Shown here: positions 6,145 through 32,775 of the stretch, in pieces
How the letters are laid out: every line of letters begins with the position of its first letter
Position numbering within the stretch: the first letter of the stretch is position 1
Assembly: GCA_028554795.2 (NCBI GenBank)
Contig: CM068832.1
Span: forward strand, 89,646,511 to 89,710,510
Source of the DNA: Sinohyriopsis cumingii
Lineage: Eukaryota; Mollusca; Bivalvia; Unionida; Unionidae
Reading direction: 5' to 3'
Length of the DNA stretch: 64,000 nt
Notes under the pieces: generated by a model
Told to the model about the DNA's origin: nothing
Database searches by the model: none
What the model saw: the letters and a program-made list of their open reading frames with translations, nothing else
Made by a program: the position numbers and the translations under genes

Positions 6145-6160
6145 AGCACTGTAAAGGGCT
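6145..6160 (-). terminator. Degenerate histone-type 3' stem-loop (copy 4)
   Basis: The minus strand reads AGCCCTTTACAGTGCT: a six-base-pair stem with one mismatch and a TTAC loop, followed by TACC and then CTCTAGAAAATAAA, which resembles a histone downstream element. The stem has drifted from the canonical GGCCCTTTTCAGGGCC, which fits the decay of the gene in front of it. It ends a minus-strand gene whose probable stop is at 6188. Confidence 0.6.
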
Positions 6161-6187: not shown

Positions 6188-6648
6188 TTAGTGGCGACAC
6201 CTCCACGGCATGGCACCGCACACGCATCTCCTACTCCAGTCTCCTTCCCAGTTTACTCTTGTGGCTGGGAGCGCAGAGTGAGGATGATTTGCTTCATCAC
6301 CCCAATCCTCTGTTTCTGGAATGTTCTTGTGGTGCCACTATTGGTTGTAGCATCCTTACTGATATTGTTTGTGGAGCTGGGAGAGGCTGCGGTACAGGTA
6401 GTGGTTGTGGCGCAGCCATTGCCTGTGCAGGTAACATCACCAATGGCTTCAATTCGCAAATGTTTTACCATTACGTGAGGCAGGATTCCTTGATTTCTTT
6501 TCCTCCTCTTCTTACTTCTTCTTCTTTTCTTCCTCTTCCTCTTTTCTTGCTGCCTTTTCTACAAATTCCATGGCGAGTTCTCCCAGGATGTGCCTGGCAT
6601 ATTCCAGTGCATCTGGAGTTCTAAAATCTTCGTAAGTCTGCTGTTCAT
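6188..6648 (-). pseudogene. Decayed small viral-type gene ending in a histone-type stem-loop
   Basis: No family recognised. On the minus strand there is an ATG at 6648, about 55 bases after promoter motif copy B. The coherent coding signal then runs in a different frame: a helical stretch (LEYARHILGEL, VEKAARKEEEEE) that ends in a Glu/Lys run, a Pro/Gln-rich segment (PQPLPVPQPLPAPQ) in another frame, and a basic Trp/Arg/Cys tail ending RRCVCGAMPWRCRH before a TAA at 6188-6190. Moving between these requires at least two frame changes, so the gene is broken. Its layout (acidic or helical front, basic tail, stop 27 bases before a stem-loop) parallels the neighbouring gene at 7026-7404. A small packaged or core protein is one possibility, but that is only inference. 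Confidence 0.5.
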
Positions 6649-6975: not shown

Positions 6976-6991
6976 AGCCCTGAAAAGGGAT
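6976..6991 (-). terminator. Histone-type 3' stem-loop (copy 3)
   Basis: The minus strand reads ATCCCTTTTCAGGGCT, the canonical metazoan histone stem-loop with one mismatched pair, followed by ACCCA. About 12 bases on is TCTAGAAAAGAAAT, which resembles a purine-rich histone downstream element. It starts 34 bases after the TAA at 7026-7028 of the upstream gene. Confidence 0.75.
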
Positions 6992-7025: not shown

Positions 7026-7404
7026 TTAGGATCTAAGATTGCGACCTCCTCTGGCGACAGGCTTTCTCACGGAATAAGGTCTGCTTCTTCGGAAAGAGAA
7101 GGAGAACTCTTTTGTGTCGACACGACAGTCGACAAAACATCTTTCAAGTTCATGCTGCTGCTGGTCTTGCTGCTGTCTCTGATATCTCGCTTGTTTCTGA
7201 AGTCTGTACTTTTCTGTCCATTCTTCTTCTAATTTCTTCTCTGAAGAGCTCTTGTATCAGGTCTTCAGTGACTTTTAACATTCTAGCATTCTCTATCTCT
7301 TCAGGCTTTGGTATCAGACTTTGTCGGACACGATGCAAATTCACGTAGGCTTCGTTCAGCTTAGCTAGTCTTGAGCACATCTTCCTAAGAGGATGAGTCG
7401 ACAA
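7026..7404 (-). pseudogene. Decayed coiled-coil/basic-tail gene ending in a histone-type stem-loop
   Basis: No known family. The first part (from about 7404) reads as a helical, charged protein (LAKLNEAYVNLHRV, KVTEDLIQELF). Near 7230 the coding signal moves to another frame, with a Gln/Arg-rich coiled-coil (KQARYQRQQQDQQQHELERC) and a strongly basic end (FRRSRPYSVRKPVARGGRNL) before TAA at 7026-7028. The frame change marks it as a pseudogene. The 5' end is separated from its promoter motif (copy C, 11719-11759) by LINE 7419-11694: the 11-bp target-site duplication lies in the leader. The Arg/Gly-rich tail suggests a nucleic-acid-binding or condensing protein; this is inference from composition only. 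Confidence 0.55.
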
Positions 7405-7407
7405 TGG

Positions 7408-7418
7408 ATGGTCAGACT
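7408..7418. repeat. Target-site duplication, left copy (ATGGTCAGACT)
   Basis: ATGGTCAGACT occurs here and again at 11695-11705, exactly flanking the 5'-truncated LINE. This defines the insertion boundaries and shows that the viral gene and its upstream region were contiguous before insertion. Confidence 0.85.
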
Positions 7419-10400
7419 TACTTACTTTCTTACTTACTCACTTAGTTGGATTAAAGTGATTTTCGCTCCAATAGAGCATGTATCACTGTTTTATGTATAC
7501 ACAGCGTGCTATTTAATTACTCCTGGGTGAAGGAATCAGAGCCACATCTCCCAGGCTTTTATGTGTTCGTGGAGCACTTATTATTAGGCCGTCAGATCGA
7601 GGTACTATTTAGTTCCTAGCGATCTGGATGTATGGTCGAGGTGAGTGGGATTGGACCCAGCACGCACTCATTGGTTAGGTTGCATTGATTGGTTGATTGA
7701 GACGAGCGGGAATGGACCCTAAGCGCACTCGTGAATATTGCTATGGGGGCGTGCAGTGCACGCTTGATGTTTTGATGTCCGGTCGTGGTGGAGGAGGAAC
7801 AGGCTTATGGATCGGGAGGCGGTTCATGGCACATTTTTGGCGTTTCTAAGTTCCAGTGTATAGTTTCTAAAAGTGTCGTCCTGCATAATTTGGAGGATAA
7901 CTCTGTGATGTTATAAGAGTAGGTTAAGGATACCCAGGTTGACAGCCATGGGTGTTGATGTTGTCACCTTGTGTAGCTGGCCCTGATGGTCTTGGGTATT
8001 TGAGTCCACCTTGATTGGTATTGGTTTTTAGGGTCTTGATATTCTATTTAGTGCTGTTTTTCGTTGCAGCATTGTGCTGCTGGATCTGATGGTCTTTGGG
8101 TTGTAGACCACCTTATACCTATTAATTAGGGGTTATACTTCCATAAGCAGAGAGTTTATTATTTGCAGCCTTGTGCTGCGGGATCTGATAGTCTTTGGAG
8201 TTTAGACCACTTTATATATTGATAATTTGGGGTCGTATTGTTCCTAATCTGTTTTAGTGAGGACGATAATGATGGTCTGGGTTCAAGACCAACTTATATA
8301 ATCTGATGCTGGGTCCTGTCGGCAATTATAGGTATTTGTTGATTGATGGATGTCACCTGGGTTTGCATGTGGTCGTATAGGTGTTAATTTTCCCGCCAAG
8401 AAACTATAAGATGGTTAAAGAGTAAGATAGGAAGAAGGTATAGATAACAAGAAAATGCCATTTTTTTATTTTTTATTTTGTATTTTTTTCTTCTTATTTC
8501 TTTTGTTTTAAATTATAATCATTATTAAAACAAAATTTACGTCTTGAATTCCTTATTTATTGTTATCCGTTATCTTAATGGTTTGGAGTGAGAAAAAAAT
8601 GTTATAGTTATTTGTATGTTATTGTGTAGTCCTGTTTGAATTAATGCCTATTTTCCTATTTTAAGTTTTTGTGGTCTTAATACTACTGCCCTATTTGAGG
8701 CTAATTGGTCTGTTTTACTATTGAGCCAGATAATAATCCTTGTCGACTAATCGAACCTTATAAGAGGAGTCAAGGACATCAAATCTGGTTGGTCCCTATT
8801 GCGTTTTCCCTATTTTTGTCCTTTATTGGTTTTTATTATTCGGCCTATGAACGGCTGTGTCAGTATGTGAACCCACGAGACCTAGGCGGCCGTCATAATT
8901 CTGTAACAGTGATTTTGTAATATTTTGGACAGGTCTTGATAAGCGTTTTTTTTTTTTTAGAACAAATTTAATTAGATTAGTTTCGTGTATAAAACTTATG
9001 ATGTTTTCGAATGTTAGAATGATATTGGGGTTTGTGTTCATCAATAATTATGGGTATATGACTGGGAATCCAATATTAGGTTGTTTATTTTAAACTTAGT
9101 CCTTTCTTTTTCAAGTGTGTGGCAGTTGTTAAAAATATGCTCTAGGTCTAATGGGACCCTTCAGTGGTAACAGTTAGGGTTATGTGGTTCTGGTCCTATG
9201 TACTGTCCGAAGCTGTTAGCCAGTTTGGTTTCGCCTGTGATTATTCTATATATGAATTTTTGGTCATTTTTGGTCATTGCCTTGTGTTTTGGTTGATTTG
9301 CTATTTCTGCAGACTTCTTTAATATTGTTCTTTTAGTTTCCTGCCTTGGGTGTTTGTGTTCCATAATTCCTGGCATTTATTGTCAATGAGAATTTTAGAT
9401 ATGCTATAGAGTTCACATATGCTATAATCTAGTTTGATGTGAGTGGTTTCGTTTAGTTTTTGTTTAGCTGTTACATGTCGTTACTTGGTATGTTAATATG
9501 GGACGGTATTCACATAAATTATACTTGTAAGTTATTATTGTTTAGTTGCTTTTAACAATAGATTGGATTGTCTACGAAAATTTTCTCTTGATTTGGTCTT
9601 ATTATTAAGTATGGAGCTTATGACGCTTAGCGAGTCTCTTATTATTACCACATGGGGTATTTTGTTCTCTTCAATCCATTTGATTGCTTCAAGTATGACC
9701 ATAATTCAGCTGTGTATATGGAGCAGAGGTTAGGTAGTCTTCGTCCTACTTTAATGTTAAGTTCGGGAATTACGTAAGCTACTACTGTTCTGGGGGGTTC
9801 TGTTTTAATGTAGTTGCAATATTTTGAGTTGATCTCTTCTGTACAGATTGTGTTTAGTTTGAGTTTTTGTTCGTTTTTATTTCCATATTTCGTAATGAGG
9901 GTGTTAACTGAGTTCTTGGTATTTACCCATGGTTCTTTGTCATAGTGATTTGCAATTTCTGCTTGGAGGTTGTCTATAGGAAGTTGTTTAACTAATTGAT
10001 GGACTTATTTCCCTGCTGGTATGTTTTTTGCTAATTTAGTTCTAAAAGGTAGGTTGCATTTATTTATAGCTAGCCGGGTGGGGTGTGTGTCGTGGTGTTT
10101 TGTTAACCTGGCTCAGTATCTAAGGGTGAGTTCCTGTCTTCTAAGGTGGAGCTGCAGTTCTCCAGTTAAGATTTGAAGCTCCACCAGTGATGTGGATGGT
10201 AGTGCTCCAGTGCAAATAAGTAAGGCCTTTATTTGTATGTTATCTAGTTTCTTGAGGTTATTTTGGGGTGCAGAGTTGTAAATTTGGCATCCGAAATCTA
10301 GCTTAGATCTAATTAATGATTTATATTATGCTAGTAAGGTTTCTTGATTGGATTGCCAGGTGGTTCCTTTAAGGTTTGTAAAAAGGTTAAGGTCTTTATT

Positions 10401-11988: not shown

Positions 11989-12486
11989 CTACTGTGAACA
12001 GGGATGACAATGTTGTGAATGAAATTGTGATTTCCACTGTTGGAAGTCATTAGGCCATTGATGGACACTACGTTTCCTAGCTAAAGACAAAAGATAAGCA
12101 TAATGGTCACAAAACCATCGATCTACTTTCTCATCATTTCTAGAAGAAAATAAGTCACTAAATATTCTAAAGAATATCCCAGACTGCGATGATGCAGAAA
12201 ATACAGACAATATTGTCCACACACCGAGGAATATTTGCCTTCTAATCTCACATTTTTGAATCGTGTGGTCTGAGCATTTCTTCTCATAAAGTCAATGATA
12301 TCGTCTTCCTGGGAGATGACTGTTGTCCGTGTTGATCACATAAGCTTGATGGTCTTAAGGTTTGCGATGACGGAGTTCATCTTTAGCACATACGACATGA
12401 TTCCAAGAAGCAGTATACGAACTGTGGTTGAACAGATAATAAAGTTCCCAGGCATCTATGTTTGTGTTCTTTTTCTTCACAGCTAA
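11989..12486 (-). pseudogene. Adenain-like (C5) cysteine protease, Polinton type, broken
   Basis: Remnant of the maturation protease that cleaves capsid precursors in adenoviruses and Polintons. Reading down the minus strand, short frames give a PGNFII segment near 12445, then SWNHVVCAKDE near 12400 (likely catalytic His), then DDIIDFMRRN and, at about 12235-12185, a VCGQYCLYFLHHR block that matches the catalytic Cys region of the family, with an upstream basic FKNVRLEG segment. The tail (NDEKVDRWFCDHY) is in yet another frame and ends in TGA at 11989. At least three frame changes and several stops make it non-functional. It follows the capsid and the Cys-motif protein in the same direction and is followed by a polyadenylation signal. 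The CGQYCLYFL block is the strongest evidence; the His assignment is less sure. Confidence 0.7.
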
Positions 12487-12878
12487 TGATAAGTGATGAC
12501 TTCGATCCAGATGTTCTCTTGGAAAATGTTTGACAAGTAAAGGGGTACTAGATCCGACTTCGGACCCTGGTTCACGATAGCTTCGATGCGACGGATCTCC
12601 AGAGGAGTTAATGTTGGACAAGAATGTTCACGGAAGCCTTGATACCACTGATGAAGCACGTATTCTATCACGATGAGACTCCAAGCTTTTTCCAGATACT
12701 CGTCCAATTTTTCTTCTTGACTCAGCATCAGGCATTTATCGTGTTGAATTTGACTAGGATGATCGTTTTGACATCCATAGCAATCTTTCTTGACCAATTC
12801 TTTCATTTTATCTCCCAGCACTGTAGCAAAACAGGAGACTAAATGGGCTTCTTGTTCTGGCCATCGGGACTTCATCAT
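12483..12878 (-). CDS. Conserved-looking protein with a CYGC...HPSQ...H.KC motif
   Basis: An uninterrupted 131-codon frame starting at a true ATG (12878). Residues about 32-50 contain CYGCQNDHPSQIQHDKC, a compact Cys/His pattern that could bind zinc. The rest is predicted helical and Trp/Tyr-rich (WSLIVIEYVLHQWYQGFREH). I associate this motif with small proteins encoded beside F54H12.2-like capsid genes in invertebrate virus-like elements, but I cannot name a function. It sits between the capsid gene and the protease on the same strand, and the protease coding signal begins within a few bases of its stop, so the two may be fused or overlapping in the intact element. Confidence 0.6.
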   Translation of the reverse strand: MMKSRWPEQEAHLVSCFATVLGDKMKELVKKDCYGCQNDHPSQIQHDKCLMLSQEEKLDEYLEKAWSLIVIEYVLHQWYQGFREHSCPTLTPLEIRRIEAIVNQGPKSDLVPLYLSNIFQENIWIEVITYH

Positions 12879-12999
12879 GATGACTTTTTCGTCTTGGTCT
12901 TGATGTTCTCATTCCATGGTCTCCTCACATTCCATGTCCAAAGTTTCTCCACTAGGTAAAGAGGGATAACAGTCTTCCATGGCTTCTAATAGTCTATAA

Positions 13000-15923: not shown

Positions 15924-16345
15924 GGACCTAGCATGCCGTTATAATTCCGAAACAGTGATTTTGTAATATTTTGTCCTTATCTGGTTTTTATTGTTCGGGT
16001 TATGATCGGCTGTGCCAGTCTGTGAACCCACGATACCGAGCCGGCCATCACAATTCCCAAACAGTGATTTGTAATATTTTGACTGGTCTTTGATTTACTT
16101 TTTAATATTTTTTTTTTTTGTTTTTTTTTTTTTTTTTTTTTTTTTCATTTTTTTCTTTTTTTTTTTTTTTTTTTGAACCTACGGGGCCTAGCATGCCATT
16201 ATAATTCCAAAACAGTGATTTTGTAATATTCGTCCTTATCTGGTTTTTATTGTTCGGGTTATGAGCGGCGGTGTCAGTCTGTGAACCCACTAGCCCGAGC
16301 CGGCCGTCACAATTCCCAAACAGTGATTTGTAATATTTTGATTGG
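15924..16345. repeat. Duplicated about 160-bp block in the LINE 3' UTR
   Basis: Two copies (about 15924-16085 and 16181-16345) share GACCTAGCATGCC, TTATCTGGTTTTTATTG, a GTGAACCCAC block and CAATTCCCAAACAGTGATT. They are separated by a T-homopolymer tract. A single related block is present in the other LINE at about 8815-8935, so the duplication arose in this lineage. Confidence 0.85.
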
Positions 16346-16432
16346 TTTTTTTCTTTTTTGGTTCGATCTTTTAGGTTTATTGGTTTTAATTTCTTTACAT
16401 GGTCTCTCTTTATACCCAACCCTTCATTCGGT

Positions 16433-19400
16433 TTAGATTTGTCCCCTTTTGCCTATTTTGTTAATGAATGTCATGATGTTATTATAGGTCATTCCTATGT
16501 TATTGTTTTTTGCCACAAGTAACTCCGGGTATGTCCACCGTTCTCCTATTTGTTCCTGTTGAGATTTTAGTTCGGCCCTTTCCTGGTTGTATTTGGGGCA
16601 TATATTTATTAAGTGTGCGATTGTTTCTGGAGTTGGGCAGTAGGGGCAGTTTTCGGTTGGTCCCCTTTTTATGTGTTTCCCTGCGCATCCTGCCAATAGT
16701 GTTTTACCTGTTCTTATTCTATTTATTATTGTTATATCGTATGGATTTTTGAAGGTCGGACTTTCGACTTTTCTACTTACTTTTTTCATCATCATGTGTA
16801 TTAGACTGTTTGCATCCGATTTTTCCCATAGCTCTTGCCACATGTCATTGATCTTGTCCCATGTTATTGATTTCAGTGACGCTGTATGCTATATTTTGGG
16901 CTTTTGGTTCGTTTGTGGCGTTTTTTGCTTCTGCATCTGCTTTGTCATTGCCTGGGATTATGGATGTGAGAGGGTATCCATACGAATTCAACGTGTTTGT
17001 TGTTTTTTTCAATCTCTTTAAGTAGCGATCTTGCATGATTAATCATATTAGGTCTGCTCTTGGATTGGTCTGTTGCTAACGATTGTAGTACACTGTAAGA
17101 GTCGCTTAGAATGACTGCCTTAGTTGTGGGGTATGTTTTGACGTATGTTAATGCCATTAGTATTGCCATGAATTCTACCGTGTATATAGCGCATTGGTCT
17201 GGGAGTCTTTTTCCAACGGCGACATCTAATTTTGGGATCACTATCCCTGCTGCAGTTTTATTTGGATTTTTGGTTTTTGATCCATCTGCGAAGATTTGCG
17301 TGTATGTCTCGTATTTGTTGTCAATGTACGTTAGTATTGATGCTCTTAGTCCTATCGGGTCATTTTGTTTTTGTCCTAGTTTACGTAAGCTAAGATCTAT
17401 TTGTGGTGTGGGACAGGTCCACGGGGGGTCTGGGTAGTACCTTATTTTTTCTGGGTTGATATTTGCGATTTGAAATTTCCTTTTTAATTCTATAATTATT
17501 TTCCCACTAGGTATTTTTTTATTTTTTCCTTTTGTATCGAATGGTTTGTCGCATGCTAAGAGGGCTTGTAGCGTGAGGTGGTTGGGTTGGTGTATTGATA
17601 TTCGAGTCGAGTATCGCAGCATCAATTCCTTCCGCCTTAGGTCTAGCGGGGGTTCTCCTACTATTATTAAGATATCTTGTGTGGGGGTACCATTTAGGAC
17701 GCCGGTGCATACCCTTAGCGCTTTTGATTGGACTGTGTCTAGTTTCTTTAGTAACGTGGCGTTCGCCGCTCCATATACCTGGCAACCGTAGTCCAATTTT
17801 GCTCTTATAAGTGCTCTATATAGGGTAACGAGTGTTTTTTGATCAACCCCCCAATTCACCCCTCTGAGGTTTCTGTGGAGGTTGATGTCTCGTTTGCACT
17901 TCGTTACGAGTTCTTGGATATGAGCTGCCCACGTGAGTTCGTGGTCGAATACCATACCTAGGAGTGTCGCTTGTTTTTCGAATTTGATGGGTACCCCCTT
18001 TAGGGTTAAGTTTGGAGTGGGTGGGGGGTGGCCACCTCCCGGATTGAAAACTATGCCTACTGTTTTTAGAGGTGACAATTTAAATCCCCATTTATCTGTC
18101 CAATTTCCTATATCGTTTAGTCCTTTTTGTAAGTGCTTGGTCGTTTCTCTGCTGGCTGGGTTGCCAGTTTTCCATACGGCGCTGTCATCAGCGAATTGGG
18201 ATAAGTCAAGGTGGTTGGGTTTTACCGCTGTTTCCAGGTCGTTTATCATTATATTAAATAAAGTTGGGCTGATTACGCTTCATTGTGGCGTGCCATTTTC
18301 CAGTTTGTATCGTTCGGAGTAGTCTTGTCCTAGTCTGACTTGTATCTTTCTATCGGTTAGGAAGTTAGCAATAAATTTGTATATATTGCCAGTTATTCCG
18401 TATGGTTTAAGTTTACTTATCAGTCCCTTAGTCCACATTAGATCATATGCTTTTTCCATGTCTAAGAAGATGGCTGTAACATATCTGGATTTTTAAAATT
18501 TTTCTCTAGATGCTAATTTGACAGCGGTTTCTAGTCTCATGAGTTGGTCTATTGTGCTTCGGTAGTTGCGAAACCCGCTCTGTGTATTAGCTAGTAGTCC
18601 TTTGCTTTCTAAATGGTATTTCAGCCTGTTGTTTACCATAGTTTCCATTATTTTACATATATTGTCTGTTAGTGATATGGGCCTGTATGATTTTATATTG
18701 CTTGAGGGTTTTCCAGGCTTAAGAATCGGGACCACTACTGCCTTTTTCCATCTTATAGGTATGGTACCGGTTTCCCATATTTTATTAATGAGGTTAAGTG
18801 CAATTGTGACAAGTTTTTTGGGTAGGTTCTTGTACATTTCATACCCCAAAGTATCCTCCCCGGGGGATGTGGTCTTTTTTGCCGGCGAGGGCCTTTCTCC
18901 ATTCGGCTTCTGTAAACGGAAGGTTTAGTGGGCCGTCATTATTTCCTGCTTCCTTTATGTTGTCAGAGTTGCTTTCCTCAAATTGCCTTTTATGATTTTT
19001 AAACTTATCCTCTAAGTTGGTATTGCTACACATGTTGGCGAAATAGTTTGCGAATAATTCTGCCTTATGTTTGTTGTTTTGTCCAGGTATGTTGGGGGTT
19101 ATTGATTTAGTTTTGCCTCTCATTTTTTTAATTCTTTGCCACACCTCCTTCGATTTTGTGTTAATATCTAGTTTTGAGCAGAATTCTCTCCATGAGTTTT
19201 GTTTAGCTATCATAATAGTTTGTTTGGCAGTTTTTTCCTTTTCCTTGTAGTAGTTAAAGTCCCTATTATTTTTAGTTCTTTTGAATTTGTTTAGAGCTCT
19301 TTTTTTCTCTTTAATTGCTATTTTACATTCATTATTCCACCAGGGCACCGTGGGTTTGGGTGCTACTCCTTTAGTTTTAGGAATTGTTTCTTGGGCCATT

Positions 19401-20257
19401 GTGTTAATGGTTTCTATTAATTTGTCATTAAAGGTGTCAATGTCCCGGTGATATATGGTTTCTGGGTCGATTGAGTCACCTATCTGTTTGAACCTAATCC
19501 AGTTGGCCTGTTCGTATTTCCATCTTGGTGTGAAGGACGCTTTATTTTGAGGTATTCTAATTTGTATTTCTATATTTATAAGGTAATGGTCACTTCCCAT
19601 AGGGTCGCTTTCATCAACTTGCCAATCAGAAATGCCTGTTAATCTTGGTGTGCATAGAGATAGGTCTATTGCTGATGTGTGGCCTGTTCTGTCATCTATC
19701 CGGGTGTGCATTCCGTTGTTTAGAAAAACTAAGTTGCATTTTTGTGCCCATTTTTCTACAATTTTTCCTTTAATGTCCGTCTTTTGACTCCCCCATAGTT
19801 CATTGTGCGCATTGAAGTCCCCGCATATTACCACCCATTCTCCACAGTCTTTAATCATTTTGATTGTTTCGTCTGCACTTAAATTGCGCTGCTCATTTGT
19901 TTCATAGAGGTTAATGATTAGTACCTGCTTAGTTTGAGCGGTTATTTTGACTATCTGTATTTCGAAGTCATTGGGCGGTCTACTATCTGTTAATTTATGC
20001 ATTTCTGATGTAATTCCATCTCTAACAAAGGTTGCTAACCCCCCTCCTCTTGCTGTGGGGGATCGATGCTTTAGGTATTTGGTGTTGTAGCCTATGATGT
20101 TTGGGATACGTGAGGTATCATTTAGGTGGGTTTCCTGTATGCATATAACATCTGGTTTTCTTTCCTGTTCAAGTATTTTGTTATTTAGTTGGTCAGCGTG
20201 GGCCCTAAGGCCGCGTGCATTCCATTGCCATATTTTGATTTCTGCTCTGGAATCCAT
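16433..20257 (-). pseudogene. LINE ORF2: endonuclease, reverse transcriptase, RNase H, C-terminal CCHC
   Basis: Starts at ATG 20257. The endonuclease domain shows IWQWNARGL, CIQETHL, GDFNAHNELWG and GSDHYLI (20257 to about 19550). The frame shifts at an A6 run near 18865. RT follows with VPILKPGKPSSNIKSYRPIS, AIFLDMEKAYDLMW and FADDSAVW; a TAA interrupts at about 18494, and a TGA replaces a Gly codon in the GTPQ-SVISP block near 18285. RNase H shows FADGSKTKN, YTVEFMAILMAL and ILSDSYSVLQSL, with a frame change near 16950 before GNDKADAEAKNA. The C-terminus has CPYCPTPETIAHLINIC, a CCHC-type finger usual in I-like elements. About four disruptions make it inactive, but domain order and length fit the family. 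It would make the cDNA at a nicked chromosomal target. Confidence 0.9.
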
Positions 20258-20344
20258 CTCTAGTGCAAAAAGTCTTAATAGTTTGTTTAATTTACTGTTG
20301 TTTTCGTTTTATGCGTGTTTCCTACCAGTGAGGGTGCTACCTAT

Positions 20345-21697
20345 TTATTTTGTTTTTGGTATCCTGATTTTTGTTTTGGCCTGCTTATAGTTTACCCCAT
20401 GGGAGATCATATATTCGACTATTAGGGCTTCTCTAAGAGCCCTGGGGCATTCTGCGTGGTTTGGTTTGTGGTTACCACTACAGTTAGCGCAGTGCTGATT
20501 GGTGGCGCTACATGTTTTCCGGTCTGGGTGGTGAAGACCACATTGATTGCACCGGAATAGGTTTCCGCAACTCTTAGAGTAATGCCCCCAATTTTTGCAG
20601 TTGCCACAGAACCGTGGTTTGTTTTTGAAAGCAAAAATTTTTTTAGCCTCGAGTTTTTCGGCTATTTTGATAGTTTCTGGGGTGGCGCCCTTAAAAAAGA
20701 GTACCACTGCAGTGCTATCCTTTCCCCTTCTTGTTTTTAGGCGGATTGCTTTCTCTACTTCCTGTCCTTTACTCCTTATGTAGTCTACTATTTCATTGGT
20801 TTTATTTTGAGTTGATACGTATATGACTCCTTTGTTGTGTGTTTTTGGGGGGTTTGGGTCTATGTGTTGTTTTGTTCTGTTGTGTCTAGTGACCTGAACA
20901 TTTATTTGGTCTATTCTTTCAATTTCCATATATTTGGCAATCTGTTGTTCAGTGGTGCATTTGATTATCAGCAAGTCGTCTCTAGTGCTTTTAAGCGTGA
21001 ATTCTCCTTGGTGATGTTTGTTCAATTGCCATGCTATGGTTTTAAAGGCTAACTTCGTTATTTTGGAATTTACTCCCTTGACGAAGAGAGTCAGTTCAGC
21101 GGGGTGTTTCTTGTTTTGGATATTTTGCAGACTGGTCTTTTTTCCCCTGGTGTTTGTCTCTTTAGCTGACTTTGTTTCGTTGTCCATAACCAGCTTGCTG
21201 GGTCTTGTATTCTGACAGTTAGTGTGTTCCTTATTCTTTCTAACTGGTATTTGGGATTTGGTTTTCCTATTATTCTTACCTTTTGTTGAGTCGTGTGTGA
21301 CTGCTTTATTTGTGGTAGGGTGAGGGCGTTCTGTTTCATCTAGTAGGTTCTCAGTTTGAGTCCCCTGGCTGCTAGTGTTTTTAACCAGCGTGGTCTGGGT
21401 TGTTTTTGTGCTTGTTGAGTATTGTTCCTCAGTTTGGGTACTCATGTCGGATGTAGTTTTGCGGTTACTCGGTAGATTGTCCACATTCTCGTTTACGCTT
21501 GGTGACAGGTAGAGTCTACTCATCGAGTCAGTTGGGGTCGAGTTGAAAATTGGCGTTAAGAACTGTATCTGTCGTTTTTCTCTTAGGGGGGATGAGACTG
21601 CTTCGGAGTAAGTTTGCCTTAGTTTATCTGCCTTTAGGTTGACCAGGCAGCTGAGATAACTATTTGATGATGTGACATTAATTTTGTTGTTATCCAT
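20345..21697 (-). CDS. LINE ORF1: nucleic-acid-binding protein with zinc knuckles
   Basis: An uninterrupted frame of about 450 codons. I chose the ATG at 21697 (MDNNKINV) because the longer frame upstream begins at TTG. The N-terminal half is Ser/Thr/Lys-rich and low-complexity. The middle has a compact domain (LTLFVKGVNSKITKLAFKTI, then IKCTTEQQIAKYMEIERI). The C-terminal part holds three zinc knuckles: CGNCKNWGHYSKSC, CNQCGLHHPDRKTC and CANCSGNHKPNHAEC. This is the usual ORF1 of I/Jockey-type LINEs, which coats the RNA in the ribonucleoprotein particle. It ends 87 bases before the ORF2 start. Confidence 0.9.
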   Translation of the reverse strand: MDNNKINVTSSNSYLSCLVNLKADKLRQTYSEAVSSPLREKRQIQFLTPIFNSTPTDSMSRLYLSPSVNENVDNLPSNRKTTSDMSTQTEEQYSTSTKTTQTTLVKNTSSQGTQTENLLDETERPHPTTNKAVTHDSTKGKNNRKTKSQIPVRKNKEHTNCQNTRPSKLVMDNETKSAKETNTRGKKTSLQNIQNKKHPAELTLFVKGVNSKITKLAFKTIAWQLNKHHQGEFTLKSTRDDLLIIKCTTEQQIAKYMEIERIDQINVQVTRHNRTKQHIDPNPPKTHNKGVIYVSTQNKTNEIVDYIRSKGQEVEKAIRLKTRRGKDSTAVVLFFKGATPETIKIAEKLEAKKIFAFKNKPRFCGNCKNWGHYSKSCGNLFRCNQCGLHHPDRKTCSATNQHCANCSGNHKPNHAECPRALREALIVEYMISHGVNYKQAKTKIRIPKTK

Positions 21698-21840
21698 CTT
21701 GAGTTTCTTTATTTGATGTAAGGTATATATGACGGGATATTTCTTTAGTTTTAATCCTGGGTTTGTTTTGATTTCTTGCAATTTATTTGAGTTTAATTCT
21801 AGCTTAAAGCTATCTGTCTTAACTATACTTTATTCTACTT

Positions 21841-23650: not shown

Positions 23651-24473
23651 AAACAACAACTTTAAAATATGAGTTTTGTCAATACTAAGTAATTGAAAAT
23701 CATACTGAAGAAATGTTTTTGTTAATACAGATTAATGGATCTAAAAAATCTCTTTCTTCTGCAGGAGTTTAAAATGTTAAATTAAAAAGGTCATGGTACA
23801 CATTGCTTTGTTCGTACACATCAGGCTCCGTAACCCATATCCAACTAAAAATTTTAGTAGAGTCTGAATAAAACGTATTTTAATCTGGATGATAATATTC
23901 TTTCTCCATTCATATATTACACCACCAAGATTGATCCAAATAAGATTACATTTTACTATAACACTGAGGATGAGTATGCCTCTTAACAACTTACAAATGT
24001 GGAGAGAATGGAGTTAAACTGAACTTTGATTTCTTTTCAACCATAGCACAAGATGATCATTTATTATGAAAAAACCTGAATAAAGTTGGAGTTCATAACC
24101 ATGACAGTCTTGATACAATATAAATTCAATATATTATTGTTGTCTTGAGGTATAGTTCTGTATATTACAATCTCACACAAGATCAGGGTATATTTTAGTA
24201 CCATACAGTTAATTCGGGATTGTATTAATACCTATTCTGGTGAATGAACATTAAATAAGATTTACTATTTTGGAACCAGTTGCAATAAAGTTTACTAAAC
24301 AAGAGAAAATATGACTTTACTATAATATCTAAAATGTAAAATCTGCAAACAGAATACTTGCTTGACTTTACACTTCAACTATATCATAATATTTATTTGA
24401 AATGAATTTATACAAACGGCATTAAATTTGGTTTCAGGCTGGTAATGACAATGGTAGTAGTGAATAGGGACGG
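23651..24473. other. Stretch without a supported gene
   Basis: AT-rich DNA. A 70-codon minus-strand frame at 23777-23989 has no recognisable content. Nothing else is visible before the tandem array that begins the right viral-type block. Confidence 0.5.
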
Positions 24474-24705
24474 TCTAGGGACTAGGGAACTTCCATGTTA
24501 AAAAGGGTATATCCACTCTGGGGACTATGTAATTTAACATGGGAGAAAAAAAAAATATCCATTCTAGGGACAAGGGGAATTTAACACGGGAGAAAGAAAA
24601 AAAACTATTCACTCTAGGGACAAGGGAAATTGAACATGGGGAATAAATCGTGGGACTGTCTTGGGACTAGGGGAAATGGAACAGGGTCGGGACCCTATTT
24701 TAATA
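24474..24705. repeat. 44-50-bp tandem array at the edge of the right viral-type block
   Basis: Five degenerate units, starting near 24474, 24518, 24563, 24613 and 24659, each beginning TCTAGGGACtAGGG and containing an AACATGGG(G/A)A segment. The array lies just past the outermost stem-loop (24852-24867), like the array at 5866-6070 on the other side of the element. Confidence 0.8.
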
Positions 24706-24716
24706 AGGTCCCGACC
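24685..24716. repeat. Perfect 10-bp inverted repeat (GGTCGGGACC / GGTCCCGACC)
   Basis: Perfect 10-bp arms with a 12-base AT-rich loop, in the last part of the 24474 array. It could form a cruciform or hairpin; its role is unknown. Confidence 0.8.
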
Positions 24717-24851
24717 TGATGGGTCTATGAAAATGGAACAGGCGAAAATTGAAACAGGGAGGGGTCTCTATTTTTTTATTATTTTTTTAAACAAAAAAAT
24801 AAAAAAAGGGGTAGGCAATTGAAAGTCAAGATCTTTTCGAGAGATAGGAAT

Positions 24852-24867
24852 GGCCCTGAAAAGGGCC
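24852..24867 (-). terminator. Perfect histone-type 3' stem-loop (copy 1)
   Basis: The minus strand reads GGCCCTTTTCAGGGCC, a perfect six-base-pair stem with a four-base TTTC loop, preceded by CCAAA and followed by ATTCC, then TCTCTCGAAAAGAT as a likely histone downstream element. In metazoans this signal is bound by SLBP and U7 snRNP and gives cleaved, non-polyadenylated mRNA ends. It begins 13 bases after the TAA of the gene at 24880-25125. The region, including about 25 bases past the downstream element (CTTTCAATTGCC), is repeated in inverted orientation at 25920-25985. Confidence 0.85.
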
Positions 24868-24879
24868 TTTGGTTTTATG

Positions 24880-25125
24880 TTAATATACCCTTAACATAAA
24901 GGGCATCTGTGACATCTTCTTCTTGACCTTAGGCTGTGCCTGACTGCAGGACCATAGATTAAGACTCTTTTGAGGCATCCTTGATGCTCCACATAAGATT
25001 CTTCGCATCCACAGGCTGGTGTCTGTCCTGTGGATAACTGTCCAGTTGGATCGGACATACATTGATATGTCCGTCCGGAACATCATCGAAGACACAAGCG
25101 TTGAAGATTGTACATCGGTCCACAT
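24880..25125 (-). CDS. Small divergent gene ending in a histone-type stem-loop; unrecognised
   Basis: An 81-codon minus-strand frame starts at ATG 25125, about 50 bases after a TATA box (CCTATAAATAAG, 25173-25180), and ends 13 bases before stem-loop copy 1. I recognise no family. The open frame is Arg/Ser/Trp-rich. Another frame over the same bases has a more protein-like composition (acidic, with IFNACVFDDVPDG and PVDAKNLMWSIKDAS) but contains two TAA codons, so the true gene may be frameshifted near its start and decayed. It forms a head-to-head pair with the gene at 25346-25910, sharing a promoter region of about 220 bases, an arrangement typical of histone gene pairs. The product is not a histone in any frame. 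Confidence 0.5.
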   Translation of the reverse strand: MWTDVQSSTLVSSMMFRTDISMYVRSNWTVIHRTDTSLWMRRILCGASRMPQKSLNLWSCSQAQPKVKKKMSQMPFMLRVY

Positions 25126-25345
25126 GTTGGGGTGCTGAGTAACAGGTGAAGGAATGCAGTGAACTGTGCTTATTTATAGGGGGAGGAAGGATTGAAACGG
25201 ATTGAGTTTGTTGACCAATCCAAACACGCGTTACAAAATTCAGTCAGCCCACGTCCAATCCGAAGAGAGCAGTCTGTGACGTCACATAGTCTATATAGAT
25301 TCGCTAGCGCCTGTGCGTAGTCAATCTAAGCGACAGTTTTTCAAC
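25126..25345. promoter_or_regulatory. Bidirectional promoter between two stem-loop genes
   Basis: The minus-strand TATA box is CCTATAAATA at 25171-25180; the plus-strand TATA box is CTATATAG at 25291-25298. Between them are two CCAAT motifs (GACCAATCC near 25210, GTCCAATCC near 25251) and a perfect CRE/ATF palindrome TGACGTCA at 25277-25284. This is a standard RNA polymerase II layout and implies transcription by host factors in the nucleus. Confidence 0.7.
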
Positions 25346-25910
25346 ATGACGGAAACTCAGAAAACGATCAGTTTGGGTGCACTGATGGTGGAGACTACCC
25401 AAGGGAACCCAGACTTACTTTCAGAAGAGGTGAATTGGGATTTTGTGGATTTTTTTACCTTGCAAGAATTTGTTCCTGAACCTTCGTCACCTTCTCCTTC
25501 ATTACCGCACATGGAAAATTTTAGACAGAGACAGAAAGAAGAATTGGAGAAATTTATACAACAGCAAAAGGAAGCGGAACAAGCTTTTCTCCTACAGCAA
25601 CAGCAGCAAGAAGAAGAGGTAAGAAAAAAACAAGAAGAAGAAGACGCAGCAGCAAAGAAACAAGGGTGTCAAAATCAAACGGTCACGGTACTGTTAGACA
25701 TTTTAGTTAAGAAGTCTGAAACAGATGTATCAGACTTCTTTATTACGGCCGAAGAGAATACGACCTTCCCAAGCTAAACACTCCAACCCTGTGACTACGC
25801 CTACTGCACCATCCTTAGTGATTTCAACGAAATCATCATCAACAGTACGCAGTCCAGAAGTAGGCCTTGGCCATGGCAAAGGCTTAAGACAGTTAAAGTT
25901 GATTGTTTAA
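25346..25910 (+). pseudogene. Coiled-coil gene with basic tail, ending in a histone-type stem-loop
   Basis: No known family. The start is ATG 25346 (MTETQKTISLGALMV), 48 bases after the TATA box; a GTG upstream extends the frame but is unlikely. The first 50 residues are acidic and contain DFVDFFTLQEFVPEP, then a long Gln/Glu/Lys coiled-coil (residues about 58-105, with QQQQQEEE). The frame closes at 25777. From about 25725 another frame stays open to TAA 25908-25910 with Lys/Arg- and Ser/Thr-rich content (RPKRIRPSQAKH, then GLGHGKGLRQLK), placing that stop 22 bases before stem-loop copy 2. I infer a single frameshift near 25725-25777. The coiled coil plus basic tail resembles the gene at 7026-7404. 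Confidence 0.55.
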
Positions 25911-25932
25911 ACTCACCCCTTACACCAAAAAA

Positions 25933-25948
25933 GGCCCTTTTCAGGGCC
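25933..25948 (+). terminator. Perfect histone-type 3' stem-loop (copy 2)
   Basis: GGCCCTTTTCAGGGCC on the plus strand, preceded by ACACCAAAAAA and followed by ATCCACG and TCTCTCGAAAAGAGAT (likely histone downstream element). Stem, loop, flanking A-rich 5' side and downstream purine element all fit the metazoan histone 3' end signal. Confidence 0.85.
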
Positions 25949-26099
25949 ATCCACGTCTCTCGAAAAGAGATAGGCTTTCAATTGCCAATAACTAAAAAAA
26001 AACATTTTACTCAATAGTACCTGTCTGTGTATGAGTGTGCGTGAGTGTAGGTTCTTATTTTAAAATCAAAACCCAAAGACACTTACCTTTTATAATTAA

Positions 26100-26164: not shown

Positions 26165-26621
26165 TTATTCTGTCTCATTGTTCACTCTCAGTTTTTTTAA
26201 TTTCTTCACCGTCATAGTCTTTTCCTCCTCTTCCTCCTCACTTTCTTCCCTTCTTTTCTTCTCCTGTTTCTTTTTCTTCACCTGTCTGTTTTCTTCCTCT
26301 TCTTCTTCCTCTTCCTCTGAAGAATCCCTCTCTTCTTCTGACTCCTCTTGTTTCTTTTTTGGGCAGTCTGGTGACCAATGTCCTTTTTCTTGACAATAAT
26401 AACAGGTATCTTGACTTTTGTCTCTTCTAACCCCTTTTTTTTCCTTTTTGACGGTCTGGACACTCTGAAGACCAATGCCCTTTCTTCTGACAGATATAGC
26501 AAGTATCTTGACTTTTATCTTGAAAGGAAGGAGAGTAGTCCCTCGGCTGGTCTGAAGAGAATTTTCTAATGACCCCTCGCAAAGCTCTGATGAAACGTTC
26601 AATCTTGGTAGTCTCTTCCAT
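26165..26621 (-). pseudogene. CCHC zinc-knuckle protein with Glu/Lys-rich tail
   Basis: Starts at ATG 26621 (MEETTKIERFIRALRG), about 55 bases after a TATA box (GTATATAAAG, 26677-26684). The first knuckle is CYICQKKGHWSSEC and the second is CYYCQEKGHWSPDC; both are C-x2-C-x4-H-x4-C and both follow DKSQDT, so the second arose by internal duplication. The frame breaks between them at a homopolymer run near 26435, with the second knuckle and the Glu/Lys-rich tail in another frame that ends at 26165. Knuckles of this type bind single-stranded RNA or DNA. It diverges from the DNA polymerase gene and shares its promoter region. Confidence 0.7.
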
Positions 26622-26754
26622 TGTTGTGCTCAGTTTGAGAGTGAAATGAATAGTGAAAGGACAAGACACATACCCTTTATATACGCTGGTCTGCTATGAC
26701 TATAAATTAATCCATGGTGTTTAAACTTTAGTCATTTGACTTTTTGCTATCGAG
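26622..26754. promoter_or_regulatory. Bidirectional promoter of the zinc-knuckle and DNA polymerase genes
   Basis: The minus-strand TATA box is GTATATAAAGGG (26673-26684); the plus-strand TATA box is CTATAAATTA (26700-26709), 46 bases from the polymerase ATG at 26755. The two boxes are within 30 bases, so the genes probably share upstream control. Confidence 0.65.
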
Positions 26755-29700
26755 ATGAAATGATCCAATTCATTTGAGAAGAAAGAAGAAGAAAGTAAGA
26801 GGCAGAAACGTGATCTATCGCCTCGTACTAGGGCTGAAGTCTTGGCACAAATTCATGCCAGTGATTTTGAAGAGGACATGAGTGAACCAGAATCCAAACC
26901 CTCTAAACAAAGTTTACCACCCTTAGTCAACCCTGAAAAGTACTATGACATTCGAGAGACGGAAAAGCGTCCCTCTAGAAAATTTAGAACTACGGCTTAC
27001 AAATACACAGTGAAGTTTAAAGATTTCAAGTCTGAAGTACTGTTAGAGAAAGCAAAAGGGTTCATCACCGACATGTGGGATTCTTTGCTCACCACACTCA
27101 AGCGACAATGTCAACCCAAAGAAGATGATCGCTTGAGACTTTCCATACAACATGACGGTTTGAAATCCCCTGTTTGGATCGAGTTTAGCAGCCCTGCAGA
27201 ATTGACCACTTCCAAAGTCATGGACAAGATTCAACACGTGCAACAATCTAATGACCAGTTTGACATCACCGATGGAAAAGCCACACTGGACATGACCCAC
27301 GTCTCTCCTCCTCAAGGGACCGGACAATGCAGAAAGACCTTATTGGTCAACAACCTTCGCATTACCAAAACAAGTCTTGTCCAAATTAACAATTTTCAAG
27401 ACCACATGTGTTTAGCCCGAGCCATCGTGGTGGGATGAACCTATGCCGACAAGAACGACACGGTAGAATGGAAAAGAGCCTGGGAGAACATTCGAAAATC
27501 GAACCGAGCCAAACAACGAAATGAAGCAGAACTTCTGTTACAACAAGCATGCCTGTCCAAAGACACATCCTGTGGCATTCCTGAGATGCAAAAATTGTAA
27601 GATGCCCTAGCTCCACGATACACCTTGAAAGTGCACCCTCAAGAAGTGCGCGGGTCTCTGTTGTTTCGAGGGAAAGACTTTAAGGATGGAAAATACATTC
27701 ACCTCTATCATCACGATGACCATTTCGATACCATTACCACTATCACTGGATTCCTGGGATACAAATATTACTGTGAGAAATGTGACTTATGATGGTTATA
27801 ATAATCGAGAGCAACACAAACATTGTGGATCGAAATGCTCAGGACGTTTGGCCTCTCAACCCTGTCTGAGCGAAGGGCAAGAACCAGTGCATTGTCCTGC
27901 TTGTCTGCGCACATTTGTCAGCCCTGCCTGTTACCAACAACATCTGAAGATGCAAGGTTCACAGAAGAAATGTGCTTGTCAACTCCTGAGATTGTGCCCA
28001 ATGTGTGGACAAGGTCTATGTATCAACAGTACCAAGGCACACGTATGTTCAGGAAAGAAAAAATGTCACATTTGTCACTGCATTGTGGACTTGGAACACC
28101 AATGCTACATACAAAAATACCAATCCCAACCAGAGAAAGAGGATGGTCACAAGAAGAAGAAAGGCAATTTCATCTTTTTCGATTTCGAATGCATGCAAGA
28201 GATCAGTATTCACATTCCTAATTTCTGCGTGGCTCATCGAGCGTGCGAGAAGTGATTCAAGAACCTATCTTGAGTTATTGCCCTCACTGCAGTAAGATTC
28301 CTGGAGGGCGTGAAAAAATCTTTCAAGGCCCGAACACACTAGCCGATTTCACACAATGGGTCTTAGACCCCATCGACAAGACGTGGAGCCAAGAGGACAT
28401 CGAACATTATTATGGAGATTGTCATTGTCATGCCACGGTGATGGCTCACAATTTCTCCGGATATGATGGACAGTTTCTTTTGAGATGTTATACGGAACGT
28501 GGCATCGAGCGTCCTAAAATCACTTTGAACGGAGCCAAAATCATTTTCATGTAAGTGGGACAAGTGCAGTTTAAAGATTCGATGAGCTACTTAGCCATGC
28601 CTTTGAGTCGAATGCCTAAAATGTTTGGAATGACAGAAATGGCTAAAGGGTACTTTCCACACTTTTTCAATACAGAAGCCAATCAACACGCCATTCTACC
28701 CCATTTGCCTCAGGCTCACTATTACGACCCTGACAACATGCGTACCGAACGAGAAACTTTCTACGCTTGGTACCAGGCTCACGCCTCCGACCCTTTCGAC
28801 TTTCAGGAAGAAATGCTAAAGTATCGTCGTTCCGACATGGACATTTTACGGCGATGCTGTGGAAAATTTCGAGAACTGTTCATGGAACACGGAGGGGTTG
28901 ATCATTTAAAAGAGGCTTGCACCATTGCCAAAGCGTGTTCCTTAGTCTACCGACAACGATTCATGCTTGAAAACACTGTGGCTGTCATCAGTCCTCAAAC
29001 GACCAACTATGTCAAACGTCAATACTCGGTCAAAGCCCCATGCTGGTTGCATTACTTGTGCGACAAGGAAGACAAATGGATTCAGCATGCCCGCAACGGA
29101 CAGGGCGAAAGATCATCGGAATGCATTCGGTCAATGGCTGGGACTTAGAAAACCCCAAGATCATGTACGAGTTTAACGGTTGCTTATTTCACGGATGTCC
29201 CGTCTGTTACCCTGACCGCGGCACTAAAAATCAGTTCTTACAACGAACCATGGAAGACTTGTACCAGGCCATTTGTCAGCCACGTCTAAAGTTAGAACAG
29301 GAAGGATACCAAGTGGTGGAAATGTGGGAACACAAATACAATCACCGTTTGAACACCGATCCCGAGTTTAAACGCCTCATGGAAAGTTACCAGTTCATGG
29401 ACCCCCTGAACCCAAGTAATAGTTTGTACGGAGGAAGGACCAATGCCACCTGTTTGCTGTACCAAGCTGACGAAGAGAAAGGAGAAGAAATCAAATACTT
29501 GGACGTGTGTTCACTGTATCCCTACGTGTGCCAATATTGTTGCTTTCCTGCAGGGCACCCACAATTGTTCACCGAACACATCGACCTAAAAAACATTCGA
29601 CAATACGAAGGCTTGATCAAGTGCAAAGTTTTGCCTCCCACGAACCTATACCATCCCGTCTTACCTCGCCATTGCCAAGGCAAACTTATGTTTCCTTTGT

Positions 29701-30799
29701 GCCGTACTTGTGCTGAAACGTGCAACCAAGATCAACCTTGTCATCACACCCAGGAAGAACGGGCCTTGACGGGGACATGGGTCAGCGTAGAATTGTTCAA
29801 AGCTCTGAACATGGGATACCAACTGTTAGAAGTGTACGAAATTTGCCACTTTCCCAAGACACAATAATTCCATAAGGGTGACCCCACGCAGAAAGGCATT
29901 TTCGCAGACTACGTGGATGCCTTTTTGAAACTGAGCAAGAAGCCAGTGGCTATCTGTCCTGGTGTCACACTCCCGAAGACCAAAAAACATTCAGAGAGAA
30001 ATTCTGGGCACAAGAAGGCATTACTTCAGATCACATTGAGAAAAACGAAGGCAGGCGATCGTTTGCCAAAGTGATGTTAAATTGCTTGTGGGGTAAAATG
30101 GCACAATGACCGTGTTTACCCAAGACGGAGTATTTGACCGAACCTTCCCGCTACTTTCAGATGATTCACGACAAAGCCAAATTCATGAAACACGTGGACG
30201 TCGTTCGTGAGGATTTGATCTTGGTGAATTACGAAGAAGATCTGAACTTTGTAGAAGATGACCCCTTTGGAAATGTCATCATTGCAGCTTACATGACAGC
30301 TCATGCTCGCTTAAAATTGTACGAAGCTTTAGAACTGTTAGGGGAACGTGTCTTGTACTTTGACATGGACAGTTGCATTTATATCGATCACCCGAGTCAA
30401 CAGCACCCTGACATCGAAGGAGACCGTTTAGGAGCCTGGACAGACAAGCACCCCGATGACAAGATTCTAAGTTTCGTTAGTGGTGGTCCCAAAAATTACG
30501 GCTACGAATACTGGGCCAAACAAGGAGAAGTGCACACGAAGTGTAAAGTGAAAGGACTTACTCTGAATTATCGTACCAGTCGAGTGGTCAACTTTGGCAT
30601 ATTGAAAGAAGCCTTGCAGTGTAGAGATAGTGACCACCTATCAACCCAACAAGATTGTACGTTTACCCACACACCACATCGTCAGTCGACCCTTGGAAAA
30701 AGTCTATCAAATCGTGTAGCAGAAGCGAGTGCGGCTTCCCACCCACTTTACTTTGCCGTATGGACATGTCGGTATAAAACATTGGTTGTAAGAGGATAG
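26755..30799 (+). pseudogene. Protein-primed family B DNA polymerase, Polinton/adintovirus type, heavily broken
   Basis: Replicative polymerase remnant. ATG at 26755 is followed by TGA at 26761. In order: an N-terminal domain (26842-27438), YIHLYHHDDHFDTIT (near 27690), a Cys-rich zinc-binding region (27830-28120), Exo I FFDFEC (28175-28192), Exo II HNFSGYDGQF (28447-28476), Exo III YRRSDMDILRR (from 28822), an FNGCLFHGCPVCYP insertion segment typical of the Polinton type (near 29175), polymerase motif A DVCSLYP (29502-29522), motif B KVMLNCLWGK (30068-30097) and motif C YFDMDSCIY (30356-30382). Motif C has Met where the usual sequence is DTDS. There are stops or frame changes near 27436, 27598, 27790, 28253, 28553, 29110, 29865, 29945, 30108 and 30625, so it is non-functional. 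The blocks are all present and in order, so decay is recent enough for full recognition. Confidence 0.95.
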
Positions 30800-30814: not shown

Positions 30815-31285
30815 ATGACTTCGCCGCAGCAAGAATCGAGTGAGAAATCCAGTGAGAACTCCAAGTTCAAACCCTACCATTTTCCAGTCTTCTTACCTGA
30901 CTATTGTGATTGTGCCCGTCGATTGGACATGTTTCAAAAATGGCCTACGGATAGGGAAGGATTACCTTCTTCGTATGTTTTAGCTAGAACAGGATTTGTC
31001 TACTTCGGACCCGAGTCAGGATTGGGATACGAAGTACAGTGTTTCGCTTGCGGACTGAAGTTACGAATGGATCTATGTATCTACAAAGATTCAGCTATTC
31101 TGGAACATACTCGATGGTCTCCGCACTGCCCTTACCTTTCAATGGCCTTTCCACCCATTAAACTATGGTACAATTATGACGGTACCTTAGAGACGGTACC
31201 TTCCAAAACTAGACGTAAACACATTGCATCCTATTTCATTGTTGTTTCTTTTCCACATAATAGCTTATTTTTTATAAAATGTTAA
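30815..31285 (+). CDS. BIR-domain (IAP-like) protein
   Basis: An uninterrupted ATG-started frame of 156 codons. One BIR domain spans residues about 36-108: RRLDMFQKWP at the start, RTGFVYFG in the middle, then the zinc ligands C76-x2-C79 (CFAC), H98 and C105 (EHTRWSPHC) and PYL at the end. Spacing from C79 to H98 is 18 residues, slightly longer than the usual 16. No RING or second BIR follows; the tail is basic, then hydrophobic. BIR proteins bind caspases or other apoptosis proteins, or act in cell division; which applies here cannot be told. The gene follows the polymerase directly on the same strand. It is the longest viral-block gene without an internal stop, while its neighbour is full of them. 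Confidence 0.85.
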   Translation: MTSPQQESSEKSSENSKFKPYHFPVFLPDYCDCARRLDMFQKWPTDREGLPSSYVLARTGFVYFGPESGLGYEVQCFACGLKLRMDLCIYKDSAILEHTRWSPHCPYLSMAFPPIKLWYNYDGTLETVPSKTRRKHIASYFIVVSFPHNSLFFIKC

Positions 31286-31806: not shown

Positions 31807-32775
31807 ATATAATAATAATAATAATGAGGACTTTGTATAGCGCCTAATCTTTAGAAGCTCTAAGCGCTTTGCAACATTAGACAACATAAAAACATACACA
31901 ATGATATGATTACAAAAACAAACACCATGAAATTAGAAAACATAAAAAACATGCTGAGAATATTTAAGGTAGTTAACATTATTAAGTCATTAAGTTTGTT
32001 TTTGTAGTCAGAATAAGTAGTTTTGAGAGCACTCTTGAATGGGATCACTGCGTCTTTGTGTCTAAGTTCAGTGGGCAATTCATTCCATGTTGCTGGGCCC
32101 TGGTATGCAAAAGAATGCTGTCCATGTGACTTTGTTTTCATAGTGAGAATAATGAGTATATGATTGTCGGAAGAGGAGTGTAAGTATCTTGCTTGTGTGT
32201 ACACATAGGTGAGGTCGGATAGGTATGTTGGACTAGAGTCTGTCAGTGAAACGTAGCACAGAGAACTAATGTTGTGTTTGATTCTGGATCGAATGGATAG
32301 CCAGTGTTGGGTACAGAGCAGCGGGGAGGTGTGCTCTGATTGTGGTACTCTAAGTATGATCCAAGCAGCTATGTTTTGAACTTTTTGAAGTCTCTGCAGT
32401 AGATATTAAGATGAACCAGACAGAATTGAGTTACCATAGTCCAGTCTTGAAAGCAGTAATGAACACACAAGTGTTTTAGTGGCATCAGCTGAAAGATATC
32501 TGAGAATGGAGCTGATGCGTCTCAGCTCAAGATACGCAGCCTTGCATATGTTCATGACATGTTGGTGCAATGTGAGAGTACTGTCCAGAGTAACACCTAG
32601 GTTTTGTACTGATTGTGTGAATTTAATGTTGGTGTTGCTGATATTTATTGTGTGAGGTAAAGGATGTGAATGAGAAAGTCTTTGATAAGTAAGTATGGCT
32701 TGATTTAAATTGTGTTTTTCATGTGACTTGCCAGAGATTTTTAAATGAATTGATAAAGTAACTTGAGACACATTT
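31807..32775 (-). mobile_element. 5'-truncated L2/CR1-type LINE
   Basis: The minus strand encodes the C-terminal RT region: FTQSVQNLGVTLDSTLTLHQ, KTLVCSLLLSRLDYGNS and, after frame breaks, SFAYQGPATWNELPTEL. The 3' end is AAAGCGCTTAGAGCTTCTAAAGATTAGGCGCTATAC-type sequence with a (TTA)n tail at 31807-31822. The same element, in the opposite orientation and more complete, ends the window at 62.3-64.0 kb. Confidence 0.85.

Follow-up and report, generated by a model that had tools for sequence, protein, structure and literature searches.

The window analyzed here is a stretch of 64,000 nucleotides from the bivalve Sinohyriopsis cumingii, in which broken copies of a mobile element with viral-type genes are found. 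A pattern search recovered two perfect copies of a 16-nt stem-loop, GGCCCTTTTCAGGGCC, at 24852-24867 on the minus strand and at 25933-25948 on the plus strand, which end two divergent genes, B and A. These and the other features of the element are as follows.

24456..24851, no strand: element terminus (5'-AGTAGTGAATAGGG) and terminal inverted repeat, inner edge abutting the gene-B stem-loop
24832..24844, minus: HDE-like purine element after gene B, TCTCTCGAAAAGA
24852..24867, minus: histone-type stem-loop ending gene B
24891..25125, minus: gene B, small basic protein, frame broken in the window copy (two tblastn pieces)
25170..25300, no strand: divergent A/B promoter region, TATA-like boxes on both sides with CCAAT motifs between them
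25346..25910, plus: gene A, acidic N-terminus, coiled-coil-like middle and basic C-terminus, frame broken near 25707
25933..25948, plus: histone-type stem-loop ending gene A (RF00032)
25960..25971, plus: HDE-like purine element after gene A, TCGAAAAGAGAT
26165..26731, minus: decayed zinc-knuckle (CCHC) gene, AATAAA downstream
26764..30799, plus: viral-type DNA polymerase B (PolB) gene, in broken pieces that were each searched separately
30815..31285, plus: BIR-domain gene
6145..6160, minus: decayed stem-loop after decayed gene D, second fragment
6191..6322, minus: C-terminal part of decayed gene D
6976..6991, minus: decayed stem-loop after decayed gene E, second fragment
7026..7437, minus: decayed gene E, in two frames
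11995..12480, minus: decayed adenovirus-type protease gene (approximate limits), no stem-loop, AATAAA downstream
12486..12908, minus: element gene X, no stem-loop
13464..14000, minus: penton-like (minor capsid) gene, broken

Layout and identity of the element

Position 24456 marks an element terminus that was also found at seven other loci, and the interior of the element, with its genes, lies to the right of it. The genes lying between 5.4 and 14 kb (E, D, protease, X and penton-like) were therefore assigned to another, second fragment of this family. The terminal inverted repeats span ~280-550 bp from the stem-loop to AGTAGTGAATAGGG and have 5'-AG ends. Gene order was assembled from the better of different copies, none of which was read whole. 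In this composite, one end reads terminal repeat, B (outward), A, zinc-knuckle, PolB and BIR, and the other reads penton-like, X, protease, E, D, C or F (outward) and terminal repeat, with stem-loops at five gene ends in each element, namely those of A, B, D and E and of the terminal gene, C or F.

The polymerase was identified in an unbroken ORF at another locus, L019, by a Pfam match to PF03175 (E 5.5e-34). The protease gave a weak match to the adenovirus endoprotease family PF00770 (E 0.0069, 16.5 bits; cut-off 21.3), and the penton-like ORF of 433 aa had no Pfam match, although we take it to resemble the F54H12.2-like proteins of Polintons. No histone match was found in Pfam for any of genes A-F; gene C gave coiled-coil matches below the cut-off, the best being TAF4 (E 0.007). 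With 16 homologues (96-230 aa) among metagenomic proteins, gene A is a real family. One homologue, P0005, continues into 'WPISGPPTSLEKR', which by eye we read as the stem-loop and purine element translated in frame. Another metagenomic protein, P0015, appears by eye to fuse the gene-A N-terminus to the N-terminal region of PolB in a deletion-like manner, which links A and PolB in another copy. Gene B has unbroken ORFs in other copies. One frame reading of it found no homologue; since the better copies read B mostly in other frames, this search is no proof that B is an orphan. No relatives were found in a viral contig collection for a PolB piece or the gene-A alignment, and the PolB piece had no tblastn match in a phage collection. 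We call the element, which is known from its two ends, Polinton-type on these likenesses, a description and not a proven membership.

Four loci (L012, L020, L022 and L025) contain two A/B ends or mixed ends, placed oppositely or repeated, which looks like the outcome of nesting or recombination of elements. The window also holds a broken retrotransposon at 15800-21830 on the minus strand, with gag-like zinc knuckles and endonuclease and reverse transcriptase ORFs, which is presumably LINE-type. In addition, it contains an inverted repeat of 666 nt (32019-32684 and 63111-63776, 92% complementary) with ORFs that we assume to be reverse-transcriptase-like.

Stem-loops in the window

Both perfect stem-loops have A-rich sequence on their 5' side and a GAAAAGA purine element (a U7-type HDE) 13 nt 3' of the stem. 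The Rfam histone stem-loop model, RF00032, scored 35.2 bits at the end of gene A (25928-25973, plus strand), above its cut-off of 34, and 33.5 bits at the end of gene B (24872-24827, minus strand), slightly below it. The original prediction, that two such stem-loops with flanking A-rich sequence and a downstream element end divergent non-histone genes, was thus borne out, also by the covariance-model search it had proposed. A loose form of the stem-loop pattern, allowing 3 mismatches, matched at 9 places in the window where 2.98 were expected. The gene-A end of the window also folds into a second hairpin across the HDE (z -3.8); the gene-B and D ends do not clearly do so, and no claim is made for it.

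The two decayed stem-loops score poorly: RF00032 gave 19.6 bits (E 1.1) at 6976-6991 and no match at 6145-6160, both on the minus strand, and on its own this pair would be weak evidence. It is made credible beyond its scores by its position next to decayed genes E and D and by the stem-loops found at 23 of 24 D and E ends outside the window. They do end two small genes of this family, as had been predicted, but belong to the second fragment rather than to the same copy as A and B. The distance from stop to stem-loop in the window copies is 22 nt for A, 23 for B, 27 for D and 34 for E.

Stem-loops across the genome

The element family is huge, with thousands of copies. In the genome from which the window comes, a perfect stem-loop was counted at 8,038 gene-A ends, against 0 for a reversed control pattern, and an 18-nt tag from the gene-A 3'UTR occurs at 6,291 sites. 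RF00032 was applied genome-wide by scoring the best 75 of 589,472 first-look candidates, which were dispersed over many contigs, and 46 of these 75 places were examined as loci L010-L055. At all 46 the stem-loop adjoins element gene A, B, C or F, with scores of up to 45.6 bits among the matches listed. At 34 of the 46 a comparison with histone sequences (8 by shared words and 26 by tblastn) found no histone gene, and the remaining 12 were annotated with element genes only; gene A and H4 share at most three 4-residue words. The best 75 of 589,472 did not include host histone genes that have the stem-loop, such as H3, and are thus no measure of how many histone genes carry one.

We then counted gene ends, excluding partial C-termini, in the window and the 46 loci. 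The stem-loop was present at 94 of 97 ends of genes A-F (A 26/28, B 32/32, C 5/5, D 15/15, E 10/11, F 6/6), and the HDE at 93 of these 94. The three ends counted as lacking it (gene A at L011 and L049, gene E at L026) have damaged but still recognizable stem-loops. In the proposed test on relatives, the better-kept copies thus carry the stem-loop after the same small genes. Because loci were chosen by their best stem-loops, the fair tests are the D and E ends outside the window, which were never the basis of choice, and gene-A ends found by the unrelated 18-nt 3'UTR tag, of which 60 of 69 in the first 21.9 Mb of contig C1 had a perfect stem-loop.

Across 20 further loci RF00032 exceeded its cut-off 33 times. 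Nearly all stem-loops lie closely 3' of a stop on the coding strand; in one set of 33 that was inspected, four had no clean nearby stop, all of them in decayed genes. A looser search of six loci placed 8 of 12 D and E ends at 29.3-32 bits (E 2.5e-4 to 2.6e-5), below the cut-off of 34. The stop-to-stem-loop distance across copies is ~15-43 nt.

Conservation of the signal

The signal consists of a 6-bp stem, a UUUC loop and ACCCA, followed 12-15 nt after the stem by GAAAAGAG or GAAAAGAAA. Two versions of the stem-loop exist, AGCCCTTTTCAGGGCT after genes D and E and GGCCCTTTTCAGGGCC after the others, and they differ by a two-sided (compensated) change at the bottom pair. In an alignment of 27 hand-chosen rows this base pair was G-C in 15, A-U in 11 and G-U in 1, and 98.8% of cells were paired, compared with 95.1% after shuffling. 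Paired cells, changed cells and the covariation score each exceeded all of 500 shuffles, whereas the other two of five measures, the numbers of covarying pairs and of pair types, did not rise above shuffles (430 and 500 of 500). Covariation is confined to one of the six pairs, and the change at the bottom pair may have happened once.

Stem-loops are also more alike between copies than the last 120 coding nt before them, with identities of.981 and.807, respectively, for A,.935 and.765 for D, and.963 and.892 for E, in a comparison that favours the stem-loop since it took in only ends already scored as having one. HDE identity was above that of coding sequence for A (.907) and D (.882) and no better for E (.891 against.892). 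For gene B the choice of loci and the terminal repeat bias the comparison further. The stem-loops of the terminal genes B, C and F adjoin the terminal repeats on their inner side and are therefore not independent.

Gene ends without a stem-loop

Five other gene kinds served as controls at the same loci (3 rows were skipped). Within 150 nt after the stop the stem-loop was absent from all 40 ends: protease 0/10, zinc-knuckle 0/9, penton-like 0/9, X 0/10 and BIR 0/2. Over the same distance AATAAA or ATTAAA was found at 10/10 protease and 8/9 zinc-knuckle ends, and at 1/10, 0/9 and 0/2 ends of X, penton-like and BIR, respectively. At least the protease and zinc-knuckle genes thus look polyadenylated. 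Several of the hexamer-poor ends (penton-like, BIR, X) are closely trailed by the next gene. With neither stem-loop nor hexamer at the penton-like and BIR ends, and a hexamer at only 1 of 10 X ends, a second mRNA class is indicated for two genes only.

The hexamers also occur within 260 nt at 11 of 26 A ends, 7 of them before the stem-loop closes, and at 10 of 32 B ends. Such hexamers arise easily from A-rich sequence. Their presence makes a fallback poly(A) tail possible for these genes. Upstream of genes C, D, E and F (at L014, L017, L015, L026 and others) we noticed by eye a common motif near GATGTTTTCCWTCACGTCCGCGCTTT, with a TATA-like box after it, which differs from the A/B and PolB/zinc-knuckle promoters.

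Comparison with host histone genes

The core histone genes of the host form tandem arrays with a repeat unit of ~8.27 kb (contig C14 at 13.10 Mb and many small contigs). We compared the element with one H3 3' end, in which the stop is followed by 28 nt, GGCCCTTTTTAGGGCC, ACACAAATGTCTA and GAAAAGAGCTAA, with the purine core GAAAAGAG; RF00032 scored it at 35.9 bits. The corresponding sequence in the element copy at L016 is GGCCCTTTTCAGGGCC, ACCCACATTTCTA and GAAAAGAGATAG. Fifteen of the 16 stem-loop bases are identical between element and host H3, and the HDE spacing of 13 nt and the purine core are the same in both, so that the element presents the host machinery with H3's own signal. The element may have captured this signal from a histone gene.

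Searches for the trans-acting factors in the host gave no convincing candidate. For U7 snRNA the best RF00066 match was 29.3 bits (E 0.27; cut-off 34), and a U7 pattern had 2 matches in the genome and 2 in the control. No SLBP domain (PF15247) was found at E 0.001; introns could split the domain, and the control genomes also gave no match. Nonetheless, a host histone gene with this signal implies a host SLBP and U7.

Interpretation

In the histone pathway SLBP binds the loop, U7 snRNP the purine element, and CPSF73 cuts after ACCCA, leaving a stable message that has no tail and is translated mostly during S phase. Our combined findings make it very probable that the stem-loops are working-type histone mRNA 3'-end signals of a Polinton-type viral transposon, processed via the host pathway. 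The signals, their placement, conservation and strand, and their likeness to a host histone gene are direct observations. The use of the host SLBP/U7 pathway, as originally proposed, gains support from the RF00032 match and from stem-loops that follow the same genes in relatives and stay in register at several ends.

Three other explanations were weighed. That the stem-loop is a DNA-level or transposition signal, acting in replication, packaging or terminal-repeat recognition and merely resembling a histone end, would fit the two of five stem-loops per element that border the terminal inverted repeats on their inner side. We consider it improbable, as the stem-loops of A, D and E are internal, nearly all lie closely 3' of a stop on the coding strand, and the UUUC loop, ACCCA and purine element are kept at the spacing of host H3, with RF00032 scores reaching 45.6 bits among the matches listed. 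A bacterial-type intrinsic terminator or a chance hairpin is already refuted by position and counts: the single look-alike in the viral contig collection, between two genes of a contig read as phage, lacks both ACCCA and the purine element, and chance does not give 8,038 matches against 0 in the reversed control.

The ends could instead have been captured together with pieces of host histone genes and be carried unused. The 15 of 16 bases shared with the H3 end speak for such an origin, as does the divergent A/B promoter region with its CCAAT and TATA motifs, which we take to resemble that of histone gene pairs. Capture may indeed be how the signal arose; disuse misfits, because copies differ less in the stem-loop than in the sequence beside it, two compensated versions of it occur, and it follows several unrelated proteins while missing after five other gene kinds. 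Carriage without use is just as improbable as the DNA-level signal. The case named beforehand as refuting, in which histone 3' ends had been captured and were unconnected with the viral genes, likewise misfits stem-loops that are kept in register at several gene ends.

The preferred reading, histone-type 3'-end processing, suggests that, for one class of genes, the element makes use of the machinery with which the host matures histone messages. From the signals we infer SLBP and U7 binding, cleavage, a tail-less message and S-phase timing. Host SLBP would bind the stem-loops of genes A-F, U7 snRNP would pair with the purine element, and CPSF73 would cleave after ACCCA, so that the A-F messages would be made without a poly(A) tail. 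The element would then give rise to two mRNA classes, histone-type and polyadenylated, of which the former would be expected to peak where SLBP is high, that is, in S phase, the early embryo and dividing germ cells. As a broader picture, we lean towards an animal Polinton lineage that runs such a two-class mRNA programme, with about five proteins made from SLBP/U7-matured, tail-less messages timed to host DNA replication.

If true, this would mean that the histone pathway is used for non-histone genes across a virus, and that the histone signal is portable, sitting on several unrelated genes of a mobile viral family. The two-class programme may have helped the family to multiply into thousands of copies while germ or embryo cells divide. 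Poly(A)-selected RNA-seq would overlook part of the transcripts of such elements, which would also provide a natural reporter for the effect of the stem-loop alone. Viral coupling of expression to S phase via SLBP becomes a directly testable question with total-RNA data.

Comparison with known systems

Histone-type 3' ends are regarded as almost private to replication-dependent histone genes. The element's ends share with those mRNAs (RF00032, SLBP, U7 snRNP) the 6-bp stem, the 4-nt U-rich loop, the A-rich 5' flank, the ACCCA 3' flank and the purine HDE. In contrast to replication-dependent histone genes, however, the genes that carry the stem-loop here are viral and non-histone, there are several such ends per mobile element, and those of D and E have an A-U bottom pair. 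With Polintons (Mavericks) and adintovirus-type elements it shares a viral PolB, terminal inverted repeats with 5'-AG and dispersed copies; the protease, by its weak adenovirus-type Pfam match, and the penton-like gene may be further likenesses. It differs from them in its small genes A-F with histone-type ends.

Adintoviruses are defined by a PolB with an OTU-like domain, a hexon and an integrase with a chromodomain (PMC11071296). The term stem-loop has 0 occurrences in the main texts of that paper and of a second on adintoviruses and Polintons (PMC11071296, PMC11071308). Among the top matches in the open-access literature we found no description of histone-type ends on viral or transposon non-histone genes, in agreement with the original remark that none was known for Polinton-like elements. 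Both components are known; their combination on several genes in thousands of copies appears to be new. Animal viruses have borrowed from histones in other ways: bracovirus carries an H4 (CpBV-H4) and adomavirus encodes 'Histoid' genes (PMC11071296). Those viruses encode a histone or histone-like protein, whereas the element described here would use the RNA signal only and encodes no histone.
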